Assembly (NCBI GenBank): GCA_029775855.1
Contig: JARVJZ010000002.1
Span: forward strand, 159,800 to 223,799
Origin: Nitrososphaeria archaeon
Lineage (GTDB): Archaea; Thermoproteota; Nitrososphaeria; Nitrososphaerales; JAAOZN01
Reading direction: 5' to 3'
Length of the DNA stretch: 64,000 nucleotides
Below are positions 3,222 through 41,245 of the stretch, piece by piece (positions within the stretch are counted from its first letter, which is position 1; every line of letters starts with the position of its first letter). The notes under the pieces were generated by a model. It was not told where the DNA came from, did no database searches, and worked only from the letters and a program-made list of their open reading frames with translations. Position numbers and translations under genes: made by a program.

Positions 3222-4010
3222 TCAGCCTAATCCTTTACTTTTCATCTTCCCAACGGCTTCAGAGAGCATCTGGAGAGCTTGAGCCAATGCATTTCTCGTC
3301 TCGTTAAGTTCCTTCCCCAACGCTTCAAGCATCTCCCTCGTCTTCTTAGACTCCTCAATCAAAGTATTCAATATCGTGGTAAGCTTCTCAGAGATCTCAC
3401 CATACCTCTCTAGAACAAATCTAAAATTTTCATCTGTTCTTTTAGCGAAGTCTCTGAACTCCTCCCTATAATCCTTGAACTCCTGCCTAAACTCTCTAAA
3501 CTCTTGTCTATAGTCTTTAAACTCCTCTCTGAAATCTTTGAACTCACCTCTAAAATCTCTAAACTCCTCTCTGAAATCCTTGAATTCACCTCTAAAATCT
3601 TTAAACTCCTCTCTGAAATCTTTGAACTCACCTCTAAAATCTCTAAATTCTTGTCTAAACTCTCTGAACTCTCCCCAGTAGTCTACGAAGATTGTTTGCA
3701 TCGCGCCGAAGCCCTCGCTCATCTCCTCCCAAAGTTCACCAGGCTTTATCACAAAGTATTTTATAGATGAATCTAACTCTGCTTTTTGTTCGCTAAACTC
3801 TTTTACAAAGGCTGGTGGTGGAGGGTTCTGTGCCCTTTTCACGAATTGTGTAAGATTCTCTTCGCTTCCTTGTGCAAAAACCGTGACAGACCCGTCTTTC
3901 TCGTTTACTACAAAGCCTGCTATCTGAAGATCTTGGGCAAGGTCGAGGATGTATCTTCTAAAACCTACTCTTTGAACCCTACCTTTAAATCTCAGCGTCA
4001 GAGCTTGCAA
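3222..4010 (-). CDS. acylphosphatase domain fused to heptad-repeat coiled coil
   Basis: Residues 1-90 are an acylphosphatase domain. The phosphate-binding loop GRVQRVGFR supplies the catalytic Arg18, and Asn36 in GFVVNEKDGS matches the catalytic Asn. Residues 114-190 are eleven consecutive near-identical heptads (EFKDFRE / EFRDFRG type), and 190-262 is a further predicted coiled coil rich in Glu, Lys and Leu. Ordinary acylphosphatases are ~90 residues and stand alone, so this is an unusual fusion. The coil probably oligomerises or tethers the enzyme. ATG start; no obvious operon partner. Confidence 0.75.
   Translation of the reverse strand: MQALTLRFKGRVQRVGFRRYILDLAQDLQIAGFVVNEKDGSVTVFAQGSEENLTQFVKRAQNPPPPAFVKEFSEQKAELDSSIKYFVIKPGELWEEMSEGFGAMQTIFVDYWGEFREFRQEFRDFRGEFKDFREEFKDFRGEFKDFREEFRDFRGEFKDFREEFKDYRQEFREFRQEFKDYREEFRDFAKRTDENFRFVLERYGEISEKLTTILNTLIEESKKTREMLEALGKELNETRNALAQALQMLSEAVGKMKSKGLG
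3441..3671 (-). repeat. 21-bp tandem repeat encoding 11 heptads
   Basis: Eleven in-frame 21-bp units code for residues 114-190 of the acylphosphatase fusion. Each unit reads E-F-(K/R)-(D/E)-(F/Y)-(R/A)-x. The units are very similar at the DNA level, which implies recent expansion by slippage or unequal crossing-over. Confidence 0.85.
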
Positions 4011-35159: not shown

Positions 35160-36755
35160 TTGTTTGATATAATTATAAAGAATGGAATTATAGTGGATGG
35201 CTCTGGTAATCCTTGGTTTAAATCCGATTTAGCGTTAAAGGGCGGGCGGATAGCATCTATAAGCAGAGCCTTCACAGAAAAGGCGGATAAGGTAATAGAT
35301 GCGGATGGGCTTATAGTGGCGCCAGGCTTCATAGATATTCATTCGCATTCAGATTCTTGCTTGATATTTGACGGAAGCGCTCAGAGCAAGGTTAGGCAAG
35401 GTGTCACTACAGAAGTTGTTGGGAATTGCGGTATGTCAGCAGCGCCGCTTTCAAAAGAGCAGAAAGATGAAATTAAAAGACAACCTTCTTTCCTCTTACC
35501 TCCTGGCTTGACCATTGATTTCTCTTGGAGCAGTATATCTGAATATTTGGAGACCTTGGAGAAGAAGGGTATAAGTGTGAATGTAGCAATACTCGCAGGA
35601 CACAGCAACCTTAGAATCTGGTGCATGGGGTATAGTGATGATAAACCAACTAGAAGCCAGATGCAAGAAATGAAAGATCTGCTGGAGCAGTCGATAAAAG
35701 AAGGAGCCTTCGGCTTCTCAACAGGGTTAGTCTACCCTCCGAGCGGATACGCCTCTACAGATGAATTAGTTGAGTTGGCTAAGAGTGCCGCTAAATGTGG
35801 AGGCATACATACTTCACATATTAGAAACGAGGGTGCAGCTGTGCTAGATGCTGTAAAAGAGATCATAGAGATCTCTAGGGCAAGCGGGGTGGCTGCAGAG
35901 ATTTCACACATAAAGTCTCAGCCGCCAGAATTCTGGGGTCATGTTGCTGGTATACTTGGGTTAATAGAAGGAGCGAGAAGGTCTGGTCTTGATATAACTT
36001 GTGATGTATACCCGTATACAGCTGGAAGCACCTACCTCAGCGCAGTCGTTGTACCCCTTTGGGCTATGGAAGGTGGGGTTAAAATGTTGGTTGAGAGACT
36101 TAAAGACAGCACGCTTAAAGATAAGATAAAGGAGGACTCTCTTAGAAGACGCTACTACCGAAAAGAAGACTGTGACAGAATATACATATCAGCATCGACC
36201 GTGTTTAAAGAATATGAAGGCAGAAGCATAGGCGAATTGGCCAGAGTCGCTGGCGAAGACCCAATGGATTTTATGCTGAACCTCTTAGAAGAAGACCCTA
36301 CAATCCATGTTGTTTTAGACTTCATGGATGAAAACGAAGTTAAATACGCTATTAAGCATCCTTTAACGATGGTGGGCTCAGACGGCTACGCTCTAAACGC
36401 AGAAGGACCTTTAAGCGTCGGTAAGCCCCATCCAAGAAACTATGGCACATTCCCAAGGGTGCTGCGGAAATATGTTAGGGAGGAGGCGTTGATAAGGCTA
36501 GAAGAGGGCATAAGGAAGATGACCTCATACCCGGCGCAAAGGCTTGGGTTGCGGGATAGAGGTAAGATAGCGGTGGGCTTCTGGGCTGACTTGACAATAT
36601 TCAACTTTGCGCGAGTCGAAGATAAAGCCACATACGCAAACCCGCATCAATACCCTAAAGGTATAGAGTATGTGTTGGTTAATGGTGTGCCTGTAATAGA
36701 AGAGGGTGAGCATACTGGCGCTAGAGCTGGAAAAGCGCTTAGACATAACCCCTAA
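35160..36755 (+). CDS. N-acyl-D-amino-acid deacylase (D-aminoacylase)
   Basis: A 531-residue metal-dependent amidohydrolase: N-terminal strand domain (IIKNGIIVDGSGNPWFKSDLALKGGRI), metal motif PGFIDIHSHSD, GVTTEVVGNCGMS, HTSHIRNEG, and C-terminal GKIAVGFWADLTIFN. It hydrolyses N-acyl-D-amino acids; some relatives process N-acylated peptides or dihydropyrimidine-like rings. TTG start. It suits an organism using peptides and amino acids. A hairpin lies after its stop. Confidence 0.88.
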   Translation: MFDIIIKNGIIVDGSGNPWFKSDLALKGGRIASISRAFTEKADKVIDADGLIVAPGFIDIHSHSDSCLIFDGSAQSKVRQGVTTEVVGNCGMSAAPLSKEQKDEIKRQPSFLLPPGLTIDFSWSSISEYLETLEKKGISVNVAILAGHSNLRIWCMGYSDDKPTRSQMQEMKDLLEQSIKEGAFGFSTGLVYPPSGYASTDELVELAKSAAKCGGIHTSHIRNEGAAVLDAVKEIIEISRASGVAAEISHIKSQPPEFWGHVAGILGLIEGARRSGLDITCDVYPYTAGSTYLSAVVVPLWAMEGGVKMLVERLKDSTLKDKIKEDSLRRRYYRKEDCDRIYISASTVFKEYEGRSIGELARVAGEDPMDFMLNLLEEDPTIHVVLDFMDENEVKYAIKHPLTMVGSDGYALNAEGPLSVGKPHPRNYGTFPRVLRKYVREEALIRLEEGIRKMTSYPAQRLGLRDRGKIAVGFWADLTIFNFARVEDKATYANPHQYPKGIEYVLVNGVPVIEEGEHTGARAGKALRHNP

Positions 36756-36763
36756 AAAATAAA

Positions 36764-36797
36764 AGATGAAGGGCGAAAGCCCGTAAATCTATCATCT
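36764..36797. terminator. bidirectional hairpin between convergent genes
   Basis: GGGCGAAAGCCC (36771-36782) is a 4-bp stem with a GNRA-type loop. An outer AGATGA (36764-36769) and TCATCT (36792-36797) can also pair. It lies between the convergent stops of the deacylase and the capsid operon, so it could terminate either transcript. Confidence 0.4.
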
Positions 36798-36993
36798 ATC
36801 TAAGACCTTTCTCTCTGCTCCAAAGAACCCATTGCTTTAAGGCTTCGTTCACGATTTGGCTGAACGAGGGTATCCTCTCACCTTTCTCATTAGCTTCTTT
36901 AACCCTGCTACGCCAAATTTCTTCAAGAATCTCCGCAACATCGCTGTCAACACTAAATGGACCGATTTTACTCTTAGTGGGGGGCGTGTCCAC
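36796..36993 (-). CDS. small ribbon-helix-helix-like protein (last gene of capsid operon)
   Basis: A 65-residue protein: a short N-terminal strand-like segment (IGPFSVDSDVAEILEEIW) and a C-terminal helix (SFSQIVNEALKQWV), the layout of ribbon-helix-helix proteins. It is 13 bp behind the major capsid gene on the same strand. It may regulate the operon. The assignment is by pattern only. Confidence 0.55.
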   Translation of the reverse strand: MDTPPTKSKIGPFSVDSDVAEILEEIWRSRVKEANEKGERIPSFSQIVNEALKQWVLWSREKGLR

Positions 36994-37005
36994 ACACCCC
37001 TTCGG

Positions 37006-37962
37006 TTAGGCTGAGGTTATCTTTCCGATGGCAAGTGGGTCTATGGTAGCGTAGTTCCATCTCGCAGTCGCCGGCACATGCACAAGATCATTTATAGGGT
37101 CATCAACTTCTTCAATGGTGTAGTCCCTACGCACAAAGAGAGCTCCAGCAAACCTTGTGGAGACCATAAGCGCTGTTCCTTGGGGAACAAGAGACGAGAC
37201 TATGATCTTTAATCCTGGTAGGTAGGCTATTGGGTTGCCTGGTTTAAATTCTTGGGCTGAGAATGCGATAAGGTTCTGTATTGCTGTATCTTTTAGAAGA
37301 TCGCTGTATTCGGAAGGGTTGACTGCTAGTACATCTGGTTCTCTGTCGTTCGCAGCCATTGTGCTCCACATAGATGCTATATCGTTGAATTTGAGTTGTC
37401 CGCTTGTCTGAGCATTGGCTTGGTTTTCGGCATCTTCAATAAGTTTTGTTATTATGTATTTGCTTTCGAATTTTGCTAGGGCTCTACCTAGTTCAGCCAG
37501 TTGTCTGTCTACTACATCCCACTCTGCGTCTTCTACCATATCTCTGCTTATAACAGCTCGACCTCCACTCTTCCTAGCGGTTATGGTGACAAAGCTGTAT
37601 TGCTCTTCGGTTATAGGCAGCTCACCAGATTCTGCGACCCAATCTACTGAAGCAGCTGCTGCTTTGGGTATCTTTATGCTAGGAGCATCTTTAGTCAAAA
37701 CTACGCATAGCTGCCTTCCTATTAAGTTTGGTATAGCTGCATCCCAGACTTGCGCAAGCACGCTTGCTACTATTGCTGTGTCGCTTGAAAGGACGGTTTC
37801 GCTAAGTTTTAGCACACCTATCCTCTCTTTTAGGTCTCTTAACATTTCGGTGCATAGCCTTCCTCCTCTTACTATCGGTTTGTCTGCGCCTAAGGTTTCA
37901 TTCAATCTATGTAAGGCTGGTGATTCTATGTCTTTACCCTTCAACCAAGAAACCTTCTCCAA
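37006..37962 (-). CDS. HK97-fold major capsid protein
   Basis: A 318-residue protein of the HK97 capsid type: helical N-terminal arm, then AVISRDMVEDAEWDVVDRQLAELGRALAKFE (spine helix), AVNPSEYSDLL, GLKIIVSSLVPQGTALMV and the C-terminal beta strand segment. It would build the shell of a tailed virus-type head. The upstream decoration, protease and portal genes on the same strand support this over an encapsulin. The reading frame is complete, without frameshift. Confidence 0.8.
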   Translation of the reverse strand: MEKVSWLKGKDIESPALHRLNETLGADKPIVRGGRLCTEMLRDLKERIGVLKLSETVLSSDTAIVASVLAQVWDAAIPNLIGRQLCVVLTKDAPSIKIPKAAAASVDWVAESGELPITEEQYSFVTITARKSGGRAVISRDMVEDAEWDVVDRQLAELGRALAKFESKYIITKLIEDAENQANAQTSGQLKFNDIASMWSTMAANDREPDVLAVNPSEYSDLLKDTAIQNLIAFSAQEFKPGNPIAYLPGLKIIVSSLVPQGTALMVSTRFAGALFVRRDYTIEEVDDPINDLVHVPATARWNYATIDPLAIGKITSA

Positions 37963-37968
37963 CCACCT

Positions 37969-38412
37969 TCACCTCAGCAAGATGAGTATCTTGTCGCCTT
38001 CTTCTGCTGATTGTAAGGCTATGCCAGCGCGCTTAGCGTAGTAGATAGTGTATGTTGCTGTGCCTCCTTCATTTACTGCTTGATCCCCTAACGCTACTGC
38101 TTTCCCGTTGTTGTCAGAGCAGACTGCTTGCCCAGCAACTATTGTGCCTCCAGCTTCAACCTTCACGATACCAGCTATAGCCACTGGCACCATGCTTCCT
38201 TCTTCTGCATCGCTAAGAGCGACACCTATCACACCGTAGTCTACTGCTGTGGCTTGTCTTACTAGCGGTGGAGGGCCGTCTGCTGCTAGTTTAACAAAGA
38301 GGTTCTTTGATATAGGTGCTGCTGCTTTGAATATTGACGCAACGGCAGAGCCGCCGAAGTCGTGAACGATTCCGCTGCTGCCAAGCCATTTGTCTACCAA
38401 CCATAAGTTCAC
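37969..38412 (-). CDS. capsid decoration-like protein (DUF2190 type)
   Basis: A 147-residue, Gly/Ala/Val-rich beta protein. Segments such as VDYGVIGVALSDAEEGSMVPVAIAGIVKVEAGGTI and GGTATYTIYYAKRAGIALQSAEEGDKILI match the DUF2190-type proteins that decorate HK97-fold capsids. It lies 7 bp before the major capsid gene, as in many head gene clusters. Confidence 0.7.
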   Translation of the reverse strand: MNLWLVDKWLGSSGIVHDFGGSAVASIFKAAAPISKNLFVKLAADGPPPLVRQATAVDYGVIGVALSDAEEGSMVPVAIAGIVKVEAGGTIVAGQAVCSDNNGKAVALGDQAVNEGGTATYTIYYAKRAGIALQSAEEGDKILILLR

Positions 38413-38442
38413 CTCGCAAACCTTCCCTCCTTACATACTTCA

Positions 38443-39444
38443 TCAGTCTCCGAGGAGGGTGCGGAGACTTGGTATGCCGGAGATTTGTTTGCTCTGTGCC
38501 TCCCTGGGTGAGGCTACTATGCCTTTCCCTTGATGCGCATTTGACTCATTACCTTCACTTAGTTTGCGTTCAAGTTTCTCTACACGCTTTAGAATGTCTT
38601 TAAGCTGCTGCTCCCAGCTTTCAGCCTCTTTTGCTTCTTGCAATCCAGCTACTCCGGTTTTGCTGGATTGTTTATTTTTCGTCTTAATTTCTTCTTGCTT
38701 TATCACCTCTTTGCTGCTTAACCCCCCAAGGTCTAGTCGGCCTTGGGTCTGGGTTGGCACACTTTCGTTTAGTCTTTCGAGTATTGCTACTGAAGTGTTT
38801 GGGTCTCCTGGTTGAGCGTCTTTTGTTAGTAGTAGTATTCCTTCGAAGATTAAGCCTCTTGGTTTTAGTAGGTTGTCTTGGTTTTCGGTATATAGGTAGC
38901 TTGCTTCTATGCTTGCGTGTTGGATTTCTCCTTTTTTGACTAGATTGTAGGTTTCTTCGTTTACTGAGGCTATGCATTCTACTCTTTCATCTTCGTATTC
39001 CGCCCATTCAACTGAGCCTACATGAATCTTGGATGCAGTGTCGTGCGATGAGCCATACCAAACGGGTTTACCTATCAGAGTTCTTGCAGCCTTGATAAGC
39101 TCCTCTTCCAAGTAGAAGTTTTTGTTGAGGGTTGTGCCGGCGTTTAGGGCGACTATCTTTATGTAGCTTTGATTGTCTATGTGCTCTAAGGATTGAAGCC
39201 AGCTGAATGATTCCTTGAGGAAACCTCTTAGGCTGCGTTTATGCCGCTCTTTGACCCATGCTTCCGCTTCACTGATGAGCCAGCCTTTACTTAAATCAAA
39301 TAAGTATGATGATAATTTTAGCTTGCCTGAGCTTCCATCTATATATGCTAGTGCTTTGACACCTAGTTTACTGTCTACATCAAGAATCTTGTTGGCTGCA
39401 GTAGATCTAGCATCGACATCAACCCTAAGATAACCTTCGCTCAT
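38443..39444 (-). CDS. prohead protease fused to scaffold-like coiled coil
   Basis: A 333-residue protein. Residues ~45-225 look like a prohead protease domain: IGKPVWYGSSHDTASKIHVGSVEWAEY with a candidate His, IQHASIEASYLY with a candidate Ser, and PRGLIFEGILLLTKDAQPGDPNTSVAI. Residues ~265-300 are a coiled coil (EQQLKDILKRVEKLERKLSEG), a scaffold-like tail common in fused protease/scaffold proteins of tailed viruses. It overlaps the portal gene by 4 bp. The protease family could be S78-like or a relative; catalytic residues need checking. Confidence 0.65.
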   Translation of the reverse strand: MSEGYLRVDVDARSTAANKILDVDSKLGVKALAYIDGSSGKLKLSSYLFDLSKGWLISEAEAWVKERHKRSLRGFLKESFSWLQSLEHIDNQSYIKIVALNAGTTLNKNFYLEEELIKAARTLIGKPVWYGSSHDTASKIHVGSVEWAEYEDERVECIASVNEETYNLVKKGEIQHASIEASYLYTENQDNLLKPRGLIFEGILLLTKDAQPGDPNTSVAILERLNESVPTQTQGRLDLGGLSSKEVIKQEEIKTKNKQSSKTGVAGLQEAKEAESWEQQLKDILKRVEKLERKLSEGNESNAHQGKGIVASPREAQSKQISGIPSLRTLLGD

Positions 39445-40634
39445 TTAGACTGTGCCTCCTCTGTAAGTTGAAAACCAATTTTTGCAAGTATGCGCCTGAC
39501 TTCATCGACTCTGATGAAACCGAGTTCTCCAGCACGCAGCAGATGCTCAAACTCCACTTTAGGCGGCTCAACTTGACCCCAATTAAGGCGCACAGAAGCC
39601 GCAACTGGGTCGTAGCCTTCTTGCATTACTATTAGTGAGAAGATCTTACGCTCTACTACCCTCTTAATGTATCTCTGGAGTGAGCGGATAAGCCTCTCGA
39701 ACTGCTCCTGCACTACACGAGCGGATGCTTCAGTGTATCCTGGGGTTGTAAAGAGCTTTATTATAGGTGTCTGAAGAGCCTTGATGTATGCGTTTTCAAA
39801 GTATTGCAATATAAAGTCTAGCTTCCCTCTTAGATCTAGAGTTTCTTCTACGATCTTGACATCTTTGTTTACTGCTATGCGCTCACCAGCATCTAGCTTA
39901 CCGATAAGGTTGGCTTGAGTCTGTATCCAACTATCGCTTGCATCTATGAAGACCCAAGCTGATTTGGGTATATAGTGGTGAAGGAGTTTACGGAGGTCAT
40001 CCCTTAACATAGCCTTTATCTTATAGAGTGAAGGAACTACTCTTGTTGTAGAGGAGCCGTCGCTAAATTTGAGGGTGTAGGTTAAGGTTTCAGAAAGAGA
40101 ATGAAGCAGCCCTCTACCGAATGCTTCGCCGTTAACAGGACTCCAACGCCAGTGTATAATCTCTTCTGGTCTGAATTCTACTTTATTTGGTGGTTTATGC
40201 TGCTCTATCTTTAAAACATTGCCATCTAAGCTACGGTAGATTTGCCAAGTGCATCCGATTGGGAGGATCTTCAGATCTTTTAGGTTAGAGGGTGATATTA
40301 ACTCGGTAAAGGAGTTTCCATACGCTACAATCTCTTTTGCGACTTCCAGCAGATAGATGTCTAAGCCTACAGATTCAGCAAATTGATCAACGGCTCTTTT
40401 TGCTTCTTCATAACCTTCTGCACAAGTTGTGTGGAACCCTTGTCCTACTATGGCTTGGGCGTAGAAGTCTACTGCTGCTTTTGCGTCTTCGTCTTTTTTG
40501 TATATTTCGACTAGAGTTGTGAAGGCTGGCTCTGGTGTTTCTGGTGTGGTTGGTGTGGGTATAGTCTTGACTACCCCTTTTTCTTTCAGTAGGTTGTTGA
40601 TCTTATTTTTTATGACCGCTATTTGACTGCTCAT
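39441..40634 (-). CDS. virus-type portal protein
   Basis: A 397-residue HK97-type portal protein: DAKAAVDFYAQAIVGQGF near the N-terminus, GNSFTELISPSNLKDLKILP, then RPEEIIHWRWSPVNGEAFGRGLLHSL, and a long C-terminal helix pair rich in Arg and Glu. The portal forms the dodecamer ring where DNA enters the head. First gene of the operon; the divergent RHH-like gene starts 138 bp upstream. No terminase gene lies next to it. Confidence 0.82.
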   Translation of the reverse strand: MSSQIAVIKNKINNLLKEKGVVKTIPTPTTPETPEPAFTTLVEIYKKDEDAKAAVDFYAQAIVGQGFHTTCAEGYEEAKRAVDQFAESVGLDIYLLEVAKEIVAYGNSFTELISPSNLKDLKILPIGCTWQIYRSLDGNVLKIEQHKPPNKVEFRPEEIIHWRWSPVNGEAFGRGLLHSLSETLTYTLKFSDGSSTTRVVPSLYKIKAMLRDDLRKLLHHYIPKSAWVFIDASDSWIQTQANLIGKLDAGERIAVNKDVKIVEETLDLRGKLDFILQYFENAYIKALQTPIIKLFTTPGYTEASARVVQEQFERLIRSLQRYIKRVVERKIFSLIVMQEGYDPVAASVRLNWGQVEPPKVEFEHLLRAGELGFIRVDEVRRILAKIGFQLTEEAQSK

Positions 40635-40694
40635 CTACGGTCGCTTGATGGTAGGTTTACCAGCTATTTAAGAGTTGCTCTTAAACCTCTTTCA

Positions 40695-40771
40695 ACTGGT
40701 CAATAGACTGGTGTTAAACTAAAAAAGATAAGGTATATATTTAGTTAAACAAGCATCTACATTTGGTCAAT
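40695..40771. promoter_or_regulatory. repeats and TATA box in the divergent capsid-operon promoter
   Basis: ACTGGT occurs at 40695-40700 and 40707-40712. GGTCAAT occurs at 40698-40704 and 40765-40771. TTAAAC occurs at 40681, 40714 and 40745. GTATATATTTA (40733-40743) is the TATA box for the rightward RHH-like gene. Repeated short motifs suggest operator sites for an RHH-type repressor. Confidence 0.4.
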
Positions 40772-40978
40772 ATGCCGGCAAAAGGTAGGAAGGGCATAAC
40801 CATCTACGAAGAAACATTTGAACTATTCAACAGATTCTACGAAGAGCATAGAGAAGAACTAAGGGCAAGAAACATAGCCTCAGTAAGCTCACTTATAATA
40901 GAATGTGCAATAAATGGCTTAGATAAGCTTAGGGATATGCTTGAAGGAGAGAAGAAGGCAAAAGCAGCTAAATCGTAG
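40772..40978 (+). CDS. small ribbon-helix-helix-like protein diverging from the capsid operon
   Basis: A 68-residue basic protein: strand-like KGITIYEETFELFNRF followed by two helices (HREELRARNIASVSSLIIECAINGLDKL). This is the RHH/CopG layout. It diverges from the portal gene and probably controls the shared promoter. The ATG at 40772 fits the TATA box at 40733-40743; the upstream TTG at 40763 is less likely. Confidence 0.6.
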   Translation: MPAKGRKGITIYEETFELFNRFYEEHREELRARNIASVSSLIIECAINGLDKLRDMLEGEKKAKAAKS

Positions 40979-40981
40979 CCC

Positions 40982-41245
40982 TCACTTATCTTGCACATCC
41001 TTTTTCTCTGGAATGCCGAGGCTTAGGCAGATTAGGCTCCTTACTTCGTCTTCGCTTAAACCCGTCTGTTGGCTTATCACTTTAACGATTATCTTGGCGG
41101 CAGCGTCTTCTAGCCTCTTGACTCGCGCATGTAGCATTTTAAGTTCTTCGTTCATCTCTCTTAATCTAATTTCTACTAAATCCCTGAGTGTTAGTAGTTC
41201 TCCGTTTATTCTCCTTAACTCTTCTTCTAACGCTTCTGGATACAT
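40982..41245 (-). CDS. small coiled-coil protein, function unknown
   Basis: An 87-residue protein: residues ~1-52 form a long amphipathic helix (EEELRRINGELLTLRDLVEIRLREMNEELKML pattern), then a short helical domain (VKVISQQTGLSEDEVRSLICLSLG). It is convergent with the RHH-like gene (3 bp apart). It may belong to the capsid-associated region, but this is unproved. Confidence 0.5.
   Translation of the reverse strand: MYPEALEEELRRINGELLTLRDLVEIRLREMNEELKMLHARVKRLEDAAAKIIVKVISQQTGLSEDEVRSLICLSLGIPEKKDVQDK

Follow-up and report, generated by a model that had tools for sequence, protein, structure and literature searches.

Gene transfer agents (GTAs) have been defined by six features: caudoviricete origin; endogenisation, often at multiple loci; mostly vertical inheritance; a genome that is not, or not fully, packaged; a cargo of mostly random host DNA; and delivery to cells (PMC9662315). 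By the count of the same review, one functional archaeal GTA is described, from a methanogen (PMC9662315). In Thaumarchaeota, the tailed-virus-derived elements NCAV2-Pro1/NitIsl-Pro1, Nvie-Pro1 and CalSub-Pro have been proposed to be GTA-like, because they have morphogenesis genes but neither replication genes nor att sites (PMC6563490, PMC5797428). The genes of RcGTA of Rhodobacter capsulatus (Rhodogtaviriformidae) occupy at least five loci, one of which is a 17-gene head-tail cluster that also holds the packaging genes (PMC7947584). Here we describe a virus-derived head operon in a 64,000-nucleotide stretch of a Nitrososphaeria archaeon (the window; C2:159800-223799 of the genome designated G000). 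We consider it probable (about 0.6) that this operon supplies the head of a GTA-like tailed particle that is inherited vertically and has its genes at two loci.

The genome is a bin of 1.5 Mb (98% complete, 6 contigs), surveyed by profile and alignment searches and by reading of selected stretches. Two other species of the same genus/family were compared: the sister species G001, and G002, whose assembly is 72% complete. The head operon (C2:196595-201044, minus strand; Table 1) carries genes for portal, prohead protease, cement protein and capsid and a small RHH-like gene. An earlier note, made from the sequence alone, had described these five co-directional genes, and a divergent RHH-like gene facing them, as intact, and the frames are indeed all open. 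Its portal, cement and capsid assignments are borne out by Pfam and PHROGs matches in a hidden Markov model check. The capsid is recognised by its fold as well: the AlphaFold model (pLDDT 74) has HK97 gp5 and HFTV1 capsids as best Foldseek matches, with E-values of ∼1e-13 to 1e-12. The protease has no family match in Pfam or PHROGs, but its model resembles herpesvirus assemblin (E ∼4e-4) and, with better target coverage, T4 gp21 (TM ∼0.5); Ser178 is invariant across 12 homologues, and a His near the expected position is kept by most homologues aligned. Thus the protease assignment stands as well. As to the two small genes, resemblance to RHH proteins was seen, but the label found no significant match in Pfam: the 65-aa protein reaches RHH_1 only with E=0.09, and the 68-aa protein has no match. 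The 65-aa family recurs in related elements of the genomes G153, G204, G279 and G029. Cellular genes flank the operon, as the note had said, with D-aminoacylase on one side and galT on the other; an 87-aa coiled-coil gene of conserved position, possibly linked to the particle, lies before galT.

We found no terminase or tail-tube gene in the window, in agreement with the earlier note; the sole TerL and tail-tube matches found in G000 are on contig C3. There, a packaging and tail cluster (C3:200319-213740, minus strand; terminase search match at C3:200346-201539) encodes in order an 80-aa protein, adaptor, tail terminator, tail tube, two small proteins that may be tail chaperones, an HK97-gp10-like protein, tape measure, baseplate hub, fibre, small proteins and TerL. 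The latter keeps Walker A (GRQTGKST), Walker B (VVDEA) and the nuclease aspartates. The loss of partners proposed in the note is not supported: the terminase and a full tail module reside at a second conserved locus, at least 145 kb from the first. Both loci sit among cellular genes. Searches of G000 turned up a single gene each for capsid, portal, TerL and tail tube, distributed over two complementary sets. No replication module was recognised beside either locus, and a genome-wide search of G000 gave no Phage_integrase match, although its loose pre-filter makes such genome-wide absences not exhaustive; a PF05065 search missed the divergent capsid owing to this pre-filter, and protein and alignment queries were used instead.

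The note had proposed to look for the operon in a related genome and for selection upon it. In G001 the complete head operon recurs between galT and thiolase, together with the divergent RHH-like gene (86% identity, identical position) and the coiled-coil gene in its place. The operon proteins are 64-92% identical, and all frames are open in both species. Recurrence at the same site with such identity indicates that the operon is not there by chance. By NG86 substitution counting on G000-G001 pairs, the ratio of nonsynonymous to synonymous substitution rates (dN/dS) was 0.05 for the capsid (88% identity), 0.08 for cement (84%), 0.09 for the portal and 0.24 for the protease. The corresponding ratio of proportions (pN/pS) ranged over 0.06-0.38 in the operon, with 0.06 for the 65-aa protein (92% identity), 0.10 for the capsid, 0.14 for cement and 0.18 for the portal. 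Flanking cellular genes at the head locus have dN/dS of 0.03-0.11, and neighbouring cellular genes at both loci pN/pS of 0.03-0.28; the constraint on capsid, portal and cement falls within the range of the flanking cellular genes. Synonymous divergence (dS) is ∼1-1.5 for head genes versus 1.6-3.3 for flanks, somewhat lower yet of the same order.

The C3 cluster is likewise syntenic in G001, on contig C92. The gene order is the same, and synteny takes in the next gene beyond the 80-aa protein and cellular genes beyond TerL, which by sequence are predicted to encode a DHH-family protein, an ECF-type transporter and an elongation factor. Values of pN/pS at this locus were 0.11 (tube), 0.21 (adaptor), 0.23 (terminator), 0.23 (TerL), 0.26 (hub), 0.32 (tape measure) and 0.39 (fibre). 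Several small genes near the fibre evolve fast (0.44-0.61), and accessory content differs between the species. Nearly all genes of the two clusters that G000 and G001 share are under purifying selection. Capsid and tube are the least changed and the presumed recognition end is the most changed, a pattern that would be expected of a particle in use. The suggestion of domestication under selection is supported by these data; a recent remnant, also considered in the note, is unlikely, since all head frames are open and, with dS of about 1-2 over head and tail genes, synonymous sites are near saturation.

The position of the split is evident from the gene order of more distant relatives in which the modules are joined. 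In G029 (JAUWBL010000052.1; L013) the order is portal, protease, cement-like gene, capsid, RHH, adaptor, terminator-like, tube. G153 (L087), a genome of the same taxonomic order as G000, has on one strand portal, protease fused to a presumed capsid, adaptor, terminator, tube, gp10, tape measure, hub, RHH, TerL and ABC/GNAT. A Hecatella contig (MTLY02000002.1, L040) carries TerL, portal, protease, cement-like gene and capsid. These three elements and the viral contig IMGVR_UViG_3300033150_002649 (L043) have head, tail and TerL genes homologous to those of G000, contiguous as far as the contigs reach, whereas in G000 they are split; in G153 and the viral contig TerL is followed by an ABC-ATPase/GNAT gene, the same as in G000. 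The first genes of the C3 cluster are those that come after the head module where relatives have a single cluster. By this comparison, the genus has its split precisely where the head module, RHH gene included, ends and the adaptor begins. The note had held adjacent terminase and tail genes in relatives to speak against domestication: such adjacency is indeed seen in the more distant G153 and Hecatella, which bears this objection out in part. We give roughly even odds to the more specific proposal of an archaeal GTA whose head and tail/packaging modules parted to different sites before the divergence of the two species, selection having kept them in place since.

Capsid and portal are nearest to those of G029 (∼52% and ∼46% identity); capsids of IMG/VR viral contigs follow with 43-49% and those of Bathyarchaeota contigs with 44-45%. 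The tail tube is nearest to that of G153 (52%). Eight viral contigs were matched with a three-sequence capsid alignment; single-protein scans with capsid or portal and two-sequence scans with tube or portal matched none, and a capsid alignment of six sequences was too diverse for pattern scans. In the portal tree the G000 protein groups with G029 and G320 (90/96). Trees built from portal, tube, adaptor and terminator are too poorly resolved to discriminate between one origin of the two halves and two. Either a mosaic ancestor, as is usual among tailed viruses, or replacement of its head by that of another virus would account for the different nearest relatives. The proposal of a particle is independent of whether the sources were one or two.

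How does this element compare with the described ones? It shares with NCAV2-Pro1, Nvie-Pro1 and CalSub-Pro a complete set of virion morphogenesis genes and no recognised replication genes; the portal of Nvie-Pro1 (Nitrososphaera provirus Pro-Nvie1) is 27% identical to that of G000. These are single loci, in contrast to the two of G000, and in NCAV2-Pro1 and Nvie-Pro1 the protease is fused to the capsid, whereas protease, cement and capsid are separate here. The earlier thaumarchaeal proposals were made from gene content alone, with no selection tests; for the G000 element sister-species synteny and selection could be measured. Like RcGTA, it consists of tailed-virus-derived genes fixed in the host chromosome at several loci and probably inherited vertically. 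Unlike RcGTA, it is divided into head versus tail and packaging genes, shows no low-carbon bias and is known from its genes alone. With regard to the definition of a GTA, tailed-virus origin is apparent for capsid, portal, cement, protease, TerL, tube and tape measure; endogenisation at multiple loci is seen in the same sites in G000 and G001, with no integrase detected in G000; and mostly vertical inheritance is suggested for two species by synteny and by divergence like that of the neighbours, while a third seems to be without the head operon at the site.

Among the guesses of the earlier note, a gene-transfer particle fits best, and the data point to a virus tamed by its host, possibly for moving DNA between cells. 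The retention of portal, protease, cement, TerL and tail genes makes a protein compartment unlikely. Encapsulins share the HK97 shell fold with the G000 capsid but have no portal, protease, terminase or tail, and we set an encapsulin compartment aside on account of the portal, protease and cement in the operon and the TerL and tail genes elsewhere in G000. A tailocin, having tail genes only, was likewise set aside in view of the head operon and TerL in the same genome. A capsid-forming phage-inducible chromosomal island (cf-PICI), with integrase, own capsid and helper tails, was rejected as no integrase was detected and the element has tail genes of its own. An active tailed provirus, contiguous and with integrase/att and replication genes, was rejected since the loci are separate and G000 gave no integrase match.

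The particle could be made as follows. Both loci would be switched on together, perhaps via the RHH-like regulators. For control of the head operon the RHH-like proteins are natural candidates: upstream of the portal gene a TTAAATA box and TTGACC...GGT half-sites are conserved in both species, in what is a putative regulatory/promoter region, and TTGACC-type half-sites by the promoter could be their targets. Locus 1 would supply portal, protease, cement and HK97-type capsid; locus 2 adaptor, terminator, tube, tape measure, hub, lectin-like fibre and TerL. Proheads would assemble around the portal with the protease inside, and cleavage would lead to maturation. TerL would then fill the heads with whatever DNA is at hand, presumably host DNA for the most part, as neither locus has recognisable genes for replication or integration beside it. 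A long non-contractile tail would be added, about 80-90 nm at the 1.5 Angstrom of tail length that a tape-measure residue accounts for. After release the particle would dock to kin cells through the lectin-like fibre. One head of ordinary size could hardly hold both loci, given their distance. An element so split can hardly package itself, and its upkeep must then serve the host; if this is true, the separation prevents self-packaging and marks full surrender to the host.

A literature search, with most subscription journals outside its reach, returned no GTA-like element with head and tail/terminase genes at separate loci. The head/tail split and the selection data thus appear to be new, while GTA-like thaumarchaeal elements as single loci had already been proposed. 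The split is a natural experiment, and the two loci offer a concrete gene set for studying particle-borne DNA exchange in a major archaeal group.

Several observations weigh against a two-locus GTA-like particle. The TerL gene of G001 has deletions of 11 bp and 5 bp in the nuclease half; if these are real, normal cutting and packaging would not be possible in G001. Beyond the deletions the old frame is still conserved (pN/pS 0.20 and 0.27), so that the lesion is either young or an assembly fault. Absence from close relatives would, according to the note, count against domestication. The operon is intact in G001, but from its expected site in G002 it appears to be missing: deacylase and thiolase are ordered as in G000, and the 650 bp past the deacylase to the contig end contain no RHH gene, capsid or other operon piece (the site was tested from the thiolase side, galT not being assembled there). 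As G002 is nearer to G000 than G001 is (thiolase/HCDH identity to G000 of 92-93% and 87-90%, respectively), loss in G002 is the simplest reading. The TerL pieces of G002 (contigs C131, C151, C111; L067, L068, L069) are of a different type, G153-like by eye, and some have stops, which suggests that TerL was replaced or that the genus has a second element; a fibre-end contig of G002 is 58-71% identical to its G000 counterpart. Both loci were found in two species only, and the element is not equally healthy across the species of the genus. Also, the low-carbon amino-acid bias of alphaproteobacterial GTAs is absent, the two loci have only 8-mers in common, which is not a convincing shared operator/promoter motif, and the head and tail halves may come from different sources.

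Part of this evidence would be explained if a rearrangement in the ancestor of the genus had split a provirus and the pieces had decayed ever since, the head operon being a functionless, slowly eroding remnant. The TerL lesions in G001, the apparent lack of the operon at the G002 site, the G002 TerL pieces with stops and the truncated portal and protease of the more distant G269 copy all agree with decay. Still, all head and tail frames are intact in G000, and all but TerL in G001; with dS of about 1-2 and pN/pS far below 1, neutral genes would have accumulated stops, and we consider decay improbable, though worth keeping in mind. It is distinctly less probable that head and tail/terminase are independent relics of different viruses put to separate uses, e.g. 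a tail-like killing device and an empty shell. The loci are far apart and the nearest relatives of head and tail proteins differ, as such an origin would have it; however, tailed viruses are usually mosaic anyway, the two sets are complementary without overlap, and they are divided at a natural module border. Moreover, the tail set has retained TerL and the shell its portal and protease, while a tailocin needs no terminase and a compartment no portal.

An active virus or satellite, with its genome in two chromosomal pieces or dependent on a helper, is very unlikely. Related tailed viruses do exist in IMG/VR, as the capsid identities attest, but in our scans the viral contigs had no close relatives of the portal or the tube; neither an integrase in G000 nor a replication module beside the loci was recognised, and the same chromosomal sites are occupied in two species, with divergence in step with the cellular neighbours. 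We give least credence of all to the head operon as a domesticated capsid that carries proteins or RNA instead of DNA. The operon does stand alone in the window, and TerL function is possibly lost in G001; yet the portal, which serves DNA entry and tail docking, is constrained like the neighbouring cellular genes, and the same genomes have conserved the tail and TerL genes along with the head operon.

Table 1. Features of the head operon (positions in the window) and of the tail and terminase cluster on contig C3
Feature	Position	Strand	Basis or remark
Small RHH-like protein, 65 aa	36796..36993	-	last head-operon gene; element-specific family
HK97-fold major capsid protein, 318 aa	37006..37962	-	PF25209 7e-13, PF05065 2e-8, phrog_1650 5e-16
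Head decoration/cement protein, 147 aa	37969..38412	-	PF09956 1e-10, phrog_673 1e-19
Prohead protease with C-terminal coiled-coil/scaffold-like tail, 333 aa	38443..39444	-	structural-model match
Portal protein, 397 aa	39441..40634	-	PF06074 2e-5, phrog_9232 2e-15
Divergent promoter region (putative)	40635..40771	-	sequence comparison of G000 and G001
Divergent RHH-like small protein, 68 aa from ATG, putative regulator	40772..40978	+	similarity
87-aa coiled-coil protein, between galT and operon	40982..41245	-	88% identity in G001
TerL	C3 (L063:18320-19771)	-	phrog_2 1e-42, PF03237 2e-18
Tail tube	C3 cluster	-	PF18906 4e-25
Head-tail adaptor	C3 cluster	-	Mu gp36-like, weak
Tail terminator	C3 cluster	-	phrog_4204
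HK97-gp10-like	C3 cluster	-	PF04883
Tape measure, baseplate hub, lectin-like fibre with laminin-G (LamG) domain	C3 cluster	-	family matches

Some further features were observed at the two loci and in relatives. The TerL of the genus (L063:18320-19771, L065:16322-17251) begins with ∼70 extra residues that include clustered Cys/His (CHH...C...C..C). Two viral-type relatives lack this N-terminal extension, which could be a DNA-binding or TerS-like module. Next after TerL in G000 comes a gene for an ABC-ATPase fused to a GNAT domain (C3:198875-200317; L063:16876-18318). Such a gene also follows TerL in G001, in G153 and, as two ORFs, in a viral contig (L056), and is found near head genes in G279 (L016). 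In both species a Snf7/ESCRT-III (CdvB-like) gene is arranged head to head with the tail/terminase operon (G000 C3:213996-214523, L064:11997-12524; G001 C92:2843-3370, L065); its Snf7 match has an E-value of 1.7e-5 in G001 and 0.03 in G000, below the Pfam cut-off. One could speculate that this gene might link particle release to membrane remodelling.

Contig C17 of G269 (L015) carries a head module with truncated portal and protease, and ∼4 kb of opposite-strand cellular genes precede the adaptor and terminator; this is a second breakage at the capsid/adaptor border, with decay. In G191 (C140; L014:14888-15394) a C-terminal capsid half with 52% identity lies near a contig end, its upstream part not open, and is apparently a relic in another family. 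The D-aminoacylase gene (window 35160-36755) stands between operon and thiolase in G000, adjoins thiolase in G002 and is absent there in G001; it was either gained after the G001 split or lost in G001. Finally, a tandem array of 21/42 bp in about 5-10 copies occupies positions 3447-3671 of the window.

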